Source of the DNA: Phycisphaerae bacterium
GTDB taxonomy: Bacteria > Planctomycetota > Phycisphaerae > UBA1845 > PWPN01
Direction: 5' to 3'
DNA: 64,000 nucleotides
Assembly (NCBI GenBank): GCA_018003015.1
Contig: JAGNEZ010000028.1
Location: 1-64,000 of the forward strand
Shown: positions 30,970-34,245 of the stretch, one piece after another
How the letters are laid out: each line of letters begins with the position of its first letter
Position numbering within the stretch: position 1 is the stretch's first letter
Program-made: the position numbers and the translations under genes
Notes under the pieces: model-generated
The model's input: only the letters and a program-made list of their open reading frames with translations
The model's database searches: none
Told to the model about the DNA's origin: nothing

Positions 30970-31860
30970 TCAGTCCCCCCCTGGCACAAGAATGAAGGTC
31001 GCGACCATGAGCATCTGGAAAACATGGATCAGCCAGCCCGGCCATATTGAACCGCTTCGCCAGACCAGATAGCACAGGGCGATGCCACCGGGGAAGGAAC
31101 TCGCCAGCTCGGTGGGGCCGGCGCCCACGTGGATGATCCCGAACAGGAGGCCGGCGCAGGTGATGGCCAGAAGCGAAGGGCCATCCAGTCCCCACCAGGC
31201 CAAGGCTCTTCGGGTCAGTGGTTGCCCGGGGTCAGTCGGTTGGGCTAGACCGAGCCATCGCAGGGTCTTCTTGGTGCGGGAGCCTTCCACGGCGGCCAGC
31301 CTTGCGGGGGTAGGGATTCGCCAGCCCTGACAAAACGAAGCCAAACAGATGCCGGTGAGGAAGATGTGCTCCGGAACGGAAACTCCAAGCATGACAAGGA
31401 GTTGCAGTCCGGCGGGGGGTTGATGTGGGGCTACCATGGCGATTCGTTCCTGGGCGAAGAGGAAGGCGAATGGGATGGTGAGACCGGCGGACAGGACGAC
31501 CATGCGCCATCCCCACCGGTTGGGCGGACGCAGCCCCATCGTGGCGGGTGAGCGTCCGGTCAGGGCGGCCAGGGAGAGCGGGAGGAGGGCGGCCATCACC
31601 AGGCCGACGACCAGCCAGAGGACGCGGTGGTGCGAGATGTACCCTCCTGGAGGAATGGTGACCTGCTGGACGTAAAGGTCCATGGCCTGGCGCATGACGG
31701 AGCCGCAGTGTTCGCGGATCCAGGATGGCCATTGCTGGCCGAAGTTCCCCCAGAAGGATGTCAGGTAGGTCGCCAGCAGGGGGAGCAGCACGGCTGCCCG
31801 AACCACCAATCTGGCCGTAAGCTGCGTGCCGGCAATGTTCTGGAGTGTTTTCGCCTTCAA
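30970..31860 (-). CDS. CPBP-family intramembrane protein with degenerate active site
   Basis: 296 residues with about eight hydrophobic segments. The C-terminal half matches the CPBP (CAAX protease/bacteriocin-processing, Abi) layout. Motif 1, normally EExxxRG, reads PEHIFLTG here, so the second Glu and the Arg are replaced. Motif 2 FGIIHVG retains His, and motif 3 WLIHVFQML retains a His. Family members are Rce1-like metal-independent glutamate proteases, and loss of the second Glu may abolish proteolysis. An insert between motif 1 and motif 2 (about 60 residues, including EGSRTKKTLRWLGLAQPTD) is unusual. It lies directly upstream of the debranching enzyme gene on the same strand. Confidence 0.75.
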   Translation of the reverse strand: MKAKTLQNIAGTQLTARLVVRAAVLLPLLATYLTSFWGNFGQQWPSWIREHCGSVMRQAMDLYVQQVTIPPGGYISHHRVLWLVVGLVMAALLPLSLAALTGRSPATMGLRPPNRWGWRMVVLSAGLTIPFAFLFAQERIAMVAPHQPPAGLQLLVMLGVSVPEHIFLTGICLASFCQGWRIPTPARLAAVEGSRTKKTLRWLGLAQPTDPGQPLTRRALAWWGLDGPSLLAITCAGLLFGIIHVGAGPTELASSFPGGIALCYLVWRSGSIWPGWLIHVFQMLMVATFILVPGGD

Positions 31861-32600
31861 GGGTCATCCTCGCGTGGTGAGAGCACTGTCCCGCAATGGT
31901 ACTCGTCGGTCAAGTTCTCGCGGGCTGCCTGGAGGTCTTGGCCTCGTCCGGAAGAACACGGTGTGGCGTCTCGGACAGGGGCTTTTCGGCGGGTCAGGTG
32001 TATCGAGGACAGTTGTGATGAGGGCGAACAGTGTCGTCAGCGGTTGGTTGGCGGTGGCTCTGGCTGAGGGGATGCCGTTACTGGATGGGCTTTCGGTTTA
32101 CGCGGGCGGCGGCCGCGATCCTGGTGGCCCGGCTGGGGCTCATGGCTCCGCCCCACGCGGGAGCGAGATGGAGGGCTTCTTGCGTGGGCAGTCCAGAGAT
32201 GATGATGCGAAAAACAGACGGGGGCGGAGTTGGTGTAACCATTTCTGAACGCTGCGATTATGTGCAGTGAAGGGGGGGTTGAGCTGTTGAGGGCGTGTCT
32301 GTGAGATGCCCTCCGGCATCATGACACCGGCGTTCGTCCGGCCGTCTGACGCGATTCTAACCTGCTGTTTTTCAAAGGATTAGGTTCCTTGTGACGGAAT
32401 TACGACACTCGTGGTCCGTCACGTGCTGGAGGAGGAGTAGCATGACCGGCAGGGGTTTCTTGCCGGGGGCAACGGGTGCGCGGTTGTCGCAGCGGGTGTG
32501 CTCCATCGCGACACGCAGTTGGTGGTGGGGTGAAGCGTCCCGAATCTGCAAAACAGTGCGGAATTATTGGGGAATTTGCACGGAAAGTCCTGCTCAGGAT

Positions 32601-32628
32601 TTGAAGCGCACCGGTCGAAAGGTATAAT
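32601..32628 (+). promoter_or_regulatory. Strong sigma-70-type promoter
   Basis: TTGAAG (32601-32606), 16-base spacer, perfect TATAAT (32623-32628). Transcription would start near 32635. The nearest protein start is 250 bases away, but an intrinsic terminator lies about 120 bases downstream. Confidence 0.75.
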
Positions 32629-32634
32629 TGAACG

Positions 32635-32757
32635 TCCGGGTTGGTTTCTTCTGTCAGCGCCTAGGAGGGAGTCGAACCCGACCCCGAATACGATCTTCCA
32701 CTCGCTGCGGCACCCTTGACCGCGCCAATTAGTATGGGGTGCCGCACGCCCTTTTTT
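32635..32757 (+). ncRNA. Candidate small RNA or attenuated leader of about 120 nt
   Basis: Bounded by the promoter at 32601-32628 and a hairpin with T6 ending at 32757. Inside, a first hairpin (32667-32685) pairs GGG+GTCG with CGAC+CCC around an AACC loop with one bulged A. The second is the terminator stem. No reading frame is evident within it. It does not match SRP RNA, 6S, tmRNA or RNase P cores as far as I can read. It may be a free sRNA, or a leader in which termination controls the oxidoreductase gene that starts 130 bases later. Inference from promoter-terminator geometry only. Confidence 0.45.
32706..32757 (+). terminator. Rho-independent terminator of the candidate small RNA
   Basis: Perfect 10-bp stem TGCGGCACCC (32706-32715) with GGGTGCCGCA (32737-32746), a 21-base loop, then CGCCC and six T residues (32752-32757). 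It precedes the oxidoreductase gene by 130 bases. Confidence 0.75.
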
Positions 32758-32886
32758 ACGGACTTCACTTGATCTCCTGGGTTGGGGTGGCCGCTGGCGT
32801 CGGACGGCGTTAAGCTTTATTCTTGTCGATAGTTGCGCTATTCTCGTCTTGTCGAGGTGGTTGGGCGTTTGAGGGAGGATTCTACC

Positions 32887-34245
32887 ATGGGGTGCAGGTT
32901 GACCAGGCGGCAGTTTTCGGTCGGCGTTGTGGCGGCGGGTGTGGGTATGGCGGCCAGAAGTGCCACGGCGAAGGTACACGGGGCCAATGAGCGAATCCGT
33001 CTTGGGGTGATTGGCTTGGGCAACCGAGGCGACCAGCTGATCGACGCCTTTCGGCCTCACAAGGATGCATGGATCGCGGCCTTGTGTGATGTGTACGCCC
33101 CGTATGTCGAGTTTGCCAAGGAGAAGGTTGGCGGCGAGCTGTTTACGACCAAGGATTACCGTGCGTTGTTGGACCGCAAGGACGTCGACGCGGTGGTTAT
33201 TGCGACGCCCGACCACTGGCATGCCAAGCAGTTCGTGGATGCCTGTGCGGCGGGCAAGGATGTGTATGTCGAGAAGCCGCTGTCGCTGGTGGTGAATGAA
33301 GGGCGGAAGATGATCGAGGCGGCCAAGAGTGCGAACCGAGTGACCCAGATGGGTGTTCAGCGGAGGTCCTCTAAGGTCTGTGCCAAGATCGCGGAGCTGA
33401 TTCAGGGCGGGGCGATCGGCAAGGTGACGGCCTGCCGGTGCTTTCATCTGACCAATGAGTGGCCGCACGGGATCGGCAATCCGGCGGACTGTGATCCGCC
33501 GGCGGGCCTGGACTGGGATTTGTGGCTGGGGCCGGCGAGGAAGGTGCCCTACAACCCGAACCGGTGTTTCTATCGGTTTCGCTGGTTTCGGGAGTACTCG
33601 GGCGGGCAGTTGACCAACTTTGGAACGCACTGGCTGGATGTGATTCAGCGGGCGATCGGGCAGGATTCGCCTGGGGGCGTGTTCGCGGTGGGCAGCAAGG
33701 GGACGATCAAGGACAACCGGGAGATTCCGGACACGATGGAGGTGGTGTGGAACTATCCGAATGGGACGTTGGTGTCCTTCTGCCAGTACAATGCCAACGC
33801 CTCGGAGGGGGCACCGCGTTCGGCTCATATCGAGTTTCGGGGGACGGAGGGGACGATTCTGCTGGACGGCTCGGAGTCACTGCAGCTCATTCCGGAGGCG
33901 GTGCGGACGGATGAGATCCCGGCGCTGAATCCGCGCAACCGGCAGGGGAACTCGAGGCAGGCTCGGGCCACGACCCGGCCGGCGGACAAGGCCCTGACCT
34001 TCAAGGGCCGGACGGATACGGCTGACCACACGCGGAACTTCCTGGACTGCATCAAGACGCGCAGGCCGTGCGTATGCCCGGTCGAAATCGGGCATCGTTC
34101 GACGGCGACCACGCTGCTGGCGAATCTGGCGTACGACCGCGGTCGGTACCTGACGTGGGATGGGGAGAAGGAGCAGTTCACCAACGATTCCGAGGCCAAC
34201 AAGTTGCTGTCGTACGAATACCGGGCGCCGTGGAGGCTGGAATAG
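32887..34245 (+). CDS. TAT-exported Gfo/Idh/MocA family oxidoreductase
   Basis: 452 residues from ATG 32887, seven bases after GGGAGGA. A twin-arginine signal (LTRRQFSVGVVAAGVGMAAR) indicates folded export with its cofactor. The Rossmann domain (about 38-160) shows RLGVIGLGNRGDQLIDAF, VVIATPDHWHAKQFVDAC and the Lys of DVYVEKPLS. A C-terminal alpha/beta domain follows (GWDLWLGPAR-like GLDWDLWLGPAR, FRWFREYSGGQLTNFGTHWL). Family enzymes oxidise or reduce sugars or inositols with NAD(P), often tightly bound. Exported copies are common in planctomycetes and usually linked to glycan breakdown. The glycosidase and esterase genes that follow on the other strand fit that setting. Confidence 0.93.
   Translation: MGCRLTRRQFSVGVVAAGVGMAARSATAKVHGANERIRLGVIGLGNRGDQLIDAFRPHKDAWIAALCDVYAPYVEFAKEKVGGELFTTKDYRALLDRKDVDAVVIATPDHWHAKQFVDACAAGKDVYVEKPLSLVVNEGRKMIEAAKSANRVTQMGVQRRSSKVCAKIAELIQGGAIGKVTACRCFHLTNEWPHGIGNPADCDPPAGLDWDLWLGPARKVPYNPNRCFYRFRWFREYSGGQLTNFGTHWLDVIQRAIGQDSPGGVFAVGSKGTIKDNREIPDTMEVVWNYPNGTLVSFCQYNANASEGAPRSAHIEFRGTEGTILLDGSESLQLIPEAVRTDEIPALNPRNRQGNSRQARATTRPADKALTFKGRTDTADHTRNFLDCIKTRRPCVCPVEIGHRSTATTLLANLAYDRGRYLTWDGEKEQFTNDSEANKLLSYEYRAPWRLE

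Follow-up and report, generated by a model that had tools for sequence, protein, structure and literature searches.

A candidate small-RNA family with a nearly invariant terminator-like hairpin in an order of the Phycisphaerae

Introduction

Several bacterial small RNAs (sRNAs) and RNA motifs offer points of comparison for the locus described here. In RepG of Helicobacter pylori, as its report describes it, the loop of the terminator hairpin is the pairing site, and this C/U-rich loop recognises G-repeats of a known mRNA by base pairing (PMC8295292). The 115-nt sX13 of Xanthomonas, Hfq-independent according to its authors, is described as directing three C-rich loops against G-rich motifs near translation starts (PMC3771888). 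The 6C RNA of Actinobacteria is presented as a short sRNA found in many genera of one lineage, with a function called unclear in that paper (PMC4046766). Closer in phylogeny, the table of a 2010 survey lists the Rhodopirellula-1 motif as a candidate RNA for Planctomycetes, and also Proteobacteria, under no RF number (PMC2864571). For the PVC group as a whole, a review based on Rfam annotations puts the number of sRNA families at eight (PMC9029176).

Here we analyse a 64,000-nt stretch of a Phycisphaerae bacterium (the window), from a 6.86-Mb assembly of 144 contigs, which very probably contains a free-standing gene for an independent, trans-acting sRNA of a new family. Like RepG, it has a terminator loop that we propose, by analogy, as a pairing site; the loop reads GACCGCGCCAA rather than being C/U-rich, and the two are set apart by description, as far as the RepG report details its loop. 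With sX13, as reported, the unit would share a similar length, exposed motifs and the Hfq independence proposed here, but it offers a single terminator loop and, beside it, a linear segment instead of three loops, and no clear enrichment was seen at gene starts. It resembles 6C RNA, in the published description, in being a short sRNA of many genera within one lineage; 6C RNA differs in having two hairpins with C runs and an Rfam family, whereas no Rfam match was obtained here. Rhodopirellula-1 is likewise a planctomycete candidate RNA, and since the survey table gives it no RF number an Rfam search may not cover it. That table also lists Proteobacteria, whereas the record titles carrying our module are almost exclusively those of Phycisphaerae or Planctomycetota. 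We describe the unit as a candidate new family among independent bacterial sRNAs, distinguished from Rhodopirellula-1 by description only.

A promoter-like and terminator-like unit in a non-coding region

The unit lies on the forward strand of a non-coding region bounded by a minus-strand ORF (30970-31860) and a Gfo/Idh/MocA-like gene. An initial annotation of the window had proposed a promoter, two hairpins and a T-run as a candidate small RNA or attenuator, and its structural claims were borne out in part. The -35-like hexamer TTGAAG (32601-32606) and the -10-like hexamer TATAAT (32623-32628), separated by a 16-nt spacer, are present in the sequence and were recovered by a consensus scan. 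From the position of this promoter we infer that the RNA starts at about 32635. The annotated 10-bp stem is formed by TGCGGCACCC (32706-32715) and GGGTGCCGCA (32737-32746), followed by CGCCC and a T6 run (32752-32757); in relatives this run is variable, and some have it interrupted. The Gfo/Idh/MocA-like gene has its ATG at 32887, 130 bases past the T-run as annotated, the longest listed ORF beginning with a TTG at 32833.

The second annotated hairpin, of 7 bp at 32667-32685, fared less well. It appeared only when an isolated 32-nt piece was folded (-10.4 kcal/mol), and the best folds of the 60-nt domain and of the whole unit pair these bases elsewhere. In a sister genome the corresponding 5' domain is predicted to fold as a single long hairpin. 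The minus strand at 32667-32679 also carries a tRNA T-arm-like string, GGGTTCGACTCCC; ARAGORN predicts no tRNA there, and the string differs in the sister genome.

Taken alone, the promoter, the 10-bp stem and the T6 tail are unremarkable, and the consensus scans are weak. The promoter scan returned one site against 0.2 expected, and the terminator scan two terminator-like sites against 1.2 expected. The 10-bp stem was in neither of the two, its 21-nt loop placing it outside a scan with a loop limit of 8 nt. The predicted fold of the whole unit was modest (z -1.63), with 15 of 200 shuffles equally stable.

The 3' module is conserved across an order

When positions 32560-32900 were compared by BLAST with the window's own genome and 40 relatives of the same order, a full-length match was obtained in the own and sister genomes alone. 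In the remaining relatives the strong match was confined to about 65 nt in one piece, around 32693-32760, and further short matches with E values up to 1 were listed as well. This 3' module, present by BLAST in 36 of the 41 genomes, occupies 32695-32757. It consists of a nearly invariant, unpaired CTTCCACTC (32695-32703) and a 12-bp terminator-like stem enclosing a loop with the nearly invariant GACCGCGCCAA (32718-32728), most of whose positions have a predicted unpaired probability above 0.8. The 5' arm of the stem is GCTGCGGCACCC (32704-32715), and the 3' arm (32737-32749) is GGGTGCCGCA followed by one bulged C and then GC. An alignment of the 20 best-scoring BLAST places, which are not a random draw, showed CTTCCACTCGCTGCGGCACCC, GACCGCGCCAA and GGGTGCCGCACGCC unchanged throughout between variable flanks.

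With a covariance model built from these 20 places, 87 of the 397 class genomes searched were positive for the module. Every one of them belonged to the window's order, probably UBA1845 of GTDB (87 of 98, own genome included), and the 299 other genomes gave none, under the stricter filters that the two class searches shared with the search of the phylum and that weak homologues may fail to pass. Only two of the 11 order members without a match had a completeness of at least 90 and a contamination of at most 5, and about 63 of 65 good genomes were positive. The module was single copy in 86 of the 87 matching genomes, the exception being G322 with two matches; BLAST additionally revealed a second, diverged copy in G017 (L227). 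In a phylum sample of 392 genomes the model returned one match besides the own genome (G584), which begins where a tRNA-Glu gene ends and was taken as the terminator of that gene. A 41-genome sample of the class gave six strong matches, all in the same order, and eight weak ones (E 7.8e-4 to 0.93). The best weak match outside the order, on reading, was an unrelated-looking GC-rich hairpin.

The exact module pattern occurred in 85 stretches of a species-genome collection and gave no matches in viral contigs. Nearly all of the 80 record titles listed among these stretches named Phycisphaerae, Phycisphaerales, Planctomycetota or other planctomycetes; the exceptions were one title naming Alphaproteobacteria, another naming Chloroflexi and a third saying only bacterium. 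Both of the former records (L067 and L072) carry the module; the title of L067 seems wrong, and its genome is probably one of the window's order.

Letter conservation was further considered over 89 loci, the set also used for promoter boxes. As 68 of these came from the exact-pattern scan, their selection alone makes the letters of the pattern invariant among them. Letters outside the search pattern were nearly fixed as well, namely CTTCCA in 87 and the 3' arm in 88 of the 89 loci. Conservation of the module is far beyond chance, which settles the question of whether the feature is real. With a 3' hairpin that is almost letter-for-letter constant across the order, the module represents, at the level of sequence, a candidate regulatory-RNA family.

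Gene neighbourhoods argue against a leader or attenuator

Because the Gfo/Idh/MocA-like gene follows on the same strand after 130 bases, the unit could instead be its leader or attenuator. Neighbours were compared, by mechanical gene calls, for the window together with 85 long and 13 short loci, 99 in all, a set in which some genomes occur twice. The same family is next downstream at L026 and L080 and third downstream at L068, but these and the window are the only four of the 99 loci at which it was found. For the window and the 85 long loci we located the closest ORF downstream with a length of 150 amino acids or more: it was on the opposite strand in 42 cases and on the same strand in 33, and was not seen in 11 of the 86. 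The nearest upstream ORF of that length was on the same strand at 42 loci, on the opposite strand at 34 and not seen at 10. Downstream families differ between locus groups, and some groups keep a neighbour, the largest such case being one upstream family at 19 of the 99 loci. Downstream neighbours that are varied and often convergent contradict a leader or attenuator of the Gfo/Idh/MocA-like gene, a reading that we now regard as very unlikely.

Of the two possibilities raised by the initial annotation, the attenuator thus falls with its changing neighbours, whereas the small RNA is favoured, at the sequence level, by the promoter-like boxes, the terminator-like hairpin, the order-wide conservation and those same changing neighbours. 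No case of both stems being lost next to retained neighbours was observed: in the sister genome (L003/L080) the two neighbours persist together with an unchanged terminator stem.

A long ORF overlaps the module at 11 loci. Some of these overlaps may be real 3' ends, because the family concerned at L038 and L093 is also convergent at three other loci. In L035, L074 and L081, three loci of the window's family, the gene that converges from downstream resembles, by eye, that of transcription termination factor Rho.

Stem pairing, promoter-like boxes and a structured 5' domain

Pairing of the 12-bp stem was assessed in 31 matches (30 distinct sequences), a set chosen to include divergent copies and aligned by fitting to the structure; all 358 of its stem cells were standard pairs. 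Two stem pairs changed on both sides, from A-U to G-C in G029 and from C-G to U-A in the second copy of G322, and G-U variants occurred at three pairs among the 30 distinct sequences. None of 500 shuffles reached two such two-sided pairs, a count that is not to be read as a probability, and slid controls gave zero or one. The covariation score of the structure (0.039) was exceeded by that of the control slid by +2 (0.047). In the 20-locus alignment no stem pair varied, so that the covariation rests on few events.

Over 62 loci the mean predicted unpaired probability within CTTCCACTC was 0.53 at the first base and 0.72-0.78 at the others. The stem arms lie 21-25 nt apart, and the T-run is 5-6 long in most of the 89 loci and interrupted in some. 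Given this large loop and the interrupted T-runs of some relatives, termination at the hairpin is not certain. Divergent copies may help to rank the parts of the module: the one in G014 keeps the hairpin and loop and lacks CUUCCACUC, while the second G322 copy (L142) retains most of the module with a compensatory stem change and has no T-run.

Upstream of the module, a TATAAT-like box (at least five of six letters) was found at a distance of 70-110 nt in 53 of the 89 loci, against a mean of 8.4 and a maximum of 18 in shuffles, the interval having been picked after inspection of the loci. TTGA stood near its expected position in 38 of the 62 loci having a -10-like box. In these 62 loci the 5' domain, from the predicted start to the module, had a mean folding z score of -2.08, compared with -0.04 (n=59) and -0.11 (n=60) for the flanks. 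In the window this variable, structured domain corresponds to 32635-32694, its 3' end being a mostly unpaired spacer. The domain has diverged beyond easy alignment. No common structure emerged in three of four aligned groups (24, 10 and 9 sequences), and the fourth (4 sequences) gave nine pairs with four one-sided and no two-sided changes. Folding predictions thus suggest that the 5' domain is structured, though not as yet by visibly homologous pairs.

An inverted repeat that is near single copy would also suit a DNA-level site for recombination, partition or an operator protein. We consider such a site most improbable, as the promoter-like boxes, the T-run, the structured 5' domain and the G-U and compensatory changes in the stem all point to RNA.

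The unit revealed no shared small ORF. The longest ORF averaged 13.2 codons over the 89 loci compared with 11.0 in one shuffle each, a difference that we did not count as evidence. In a clade whose module contains CACCCTCAGACC (for example L040 and L090), 21 of the 24 loci show, exactly 25 nt upstream of the module, a TAA triplet. The frames before this TAA differ among members, so no stop codon is shared, and the letters beside it seem, by eye, to co-vary with the 5' strand.

Known RNA families and RNA-binding proteins

Near-universality in an order is also what a diverged form of a known housekeeping RNA would display, and the Rfam 6S model detected nothing in the window's own genome, although it responds in only 5 of 14 control genomes. 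The layout of the unit is, however, presumably unlike that of 6S RNA. SRP RNA was matched above its cut-off on another contig of the genome (52.4 bits), and ARAGORN found no tRNA or tmRNA in the window. Searching the window against Rfam 15 gave no match at the gathering score. With E values up to 10, the sole match over 32300-32900 was an FMN riboswitch of 12 bits on the other strand, which we took as chance. We therefore hold a diverged SRP RNA, tmRNA or 6S RNA to be highly unlikely.

The family search and intergenic alignment that the initial annotation had suggested yielded no Rfam family, a conserved terminator stem and a 7-bp hairpin that is not conserved. No description of such an RNA was found in the mostly open-access literature searched.

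Among RNA-binding proteins, CsrA was detected in 21 of 21 genomes and Hfq in none of the 21, by a profile that responds in 5 of 14 controls. The 60 nt preceding the module contain no excess of GGA (0.76 compared with 1.05 in shuffles, 89 loci), and no GGA was seen in the window's module, making a CsrB-type sponge for CsrA unlikely despite the ubiquity of that protein.

A proposed antisense mechanism and its main rival

We propose that a sigma70-type promoter would drive transcription of roughly positions 32635-32757, giving an RNA of some 123 nt. Its structured 5' domain would be the fast-changing part, joined through a short stretch of unpaired spacer to the nearly invariant 3' module. The module would present CUUCCACUC unpaired, followed by the terminator hairpin with GACCGCGCCAA in its loop, and both accessible segments would pair with one or a few mRNAs without Hfq, while a 5' hairpin would shield the 5' end of the RNA. 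A chaperone-free design fits the failure to detect Hfq in any of the 21 genomes; it is this result, together with the unenriched GGA, that leads us to propose antisense action through CUUCCACUC and the terminator loop. The complete reading, sRNA gene plus Hfq-independent antisense mechanism, we judge only slightly more probable than improbable; transcription, termination, pairing, targets and the role of the 5' domain are elements of it that we infer.

The stem itself counts against antisense action. In antisense sRNAs the sequence of the terminator stem generally drifts, and the stem here hardly varies. Such fixed letters may point to recognition of the hairpin by a protein. The same sRNA gene could then carry its 3' module as a protein-binding site, within a small RNP or as a sponge for an RNA-binding protein. 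This is our main rival explanation, which we regard as a serious possibility though clearly short of an even chance. It would account for letters of stem and loop that are fixed beyond the needs of pairing, for an order-wide, near single-copy distribution, and for the divergent G014 copy, which retains just the hairpin and loop; the lack of a clear antisense signal at predicted gene starts (below) is also in its favour. The conserved unpaired CUUCCACUC beyond the hairpin, on the other hand, suggests base pairing too, and the form of this explanation that involves CsrA is disfavoured by the GGA counts.

We consider it rather unlikely that the unit is an order-specific housekeeping RNP RNA whose hairpin and CUUCCACUC would be the heart of a dedicated complex, for instance one with RNA polymerase or the ribosome. 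If it were true, the RNA would fill a role that elsewhere falls to a different RNA, and would do so in genomes where Hfq was detected in none of 21 and, in the window's own case, the 6S model was silent.

Under any of these RNA readings, the candidate family extends over an order of planctomycetes, is close to single copy and shows almost no change in the letters of the stem, the loop and the adjoining unpaired segment. Such constraint in bacteria without detectable Hfq would provide a clean test of sRNA action without the classical chaperone, and the module offers an exact bait for finding its partner.

Search for pairing partners

For the antisense mechanism proposed above, possible partners were sought at 856 gene starts, all predicted mechanically, in two relatives and the 85 loci. 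No 7-mer complementary to the module exceeded its composition expectation by more than about twofold, in an enrichment test that an sRNA with few targets would escape. A few complementary 7-mers did exceed a low coding-sequence expectation at these starts, for example with 4 occurrences versus 0.7. The pattern CGAGTGGAAG followed by ATG within 30 nt gave 290 matches in 41 genomes versus 140 for the reversed pattern, a count that includes the module itself and an excess that may reflect codon usage (Glu-Trp-Lys). No clear recurrent gene stood behind this pattern among the matches listed.

We also read short second matches to the seed at 20 places, a selection of those among the BLAST matches listed. 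At five of them (L120, L126, L129, L131 and L133) a seed complement of 13-19 nt lies inside, and antisense to, a gene that we take, by eye and from a sequence motif, to encode a ribonucleotide reductase. This gene is a possible target, or the matches may merely reflect conserved Ser-Glu-Trp-Lys codons. In L134 and L135 the match lies in the sense direction in a gene that looks integrase-like by eye, and the other 13 of the 20 places had no common gene that we recognised.

Pairing with stable RNAs was considered in the same way. Of six comparisons with rRNA, the one that stood out was that of the conserved loop with 16S rRNA, covering the own genome's 16S alone: a 9-nt complement at about position 1405 (L220) surpassed 60 of 60 shuffles. 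The longest match to 23S rRNA was 10 nt. Among 16 tRNAs in the sampled DNA the longest complement was 9 nt, and two tRNA-Ser carry 7 nt of the seed complement.
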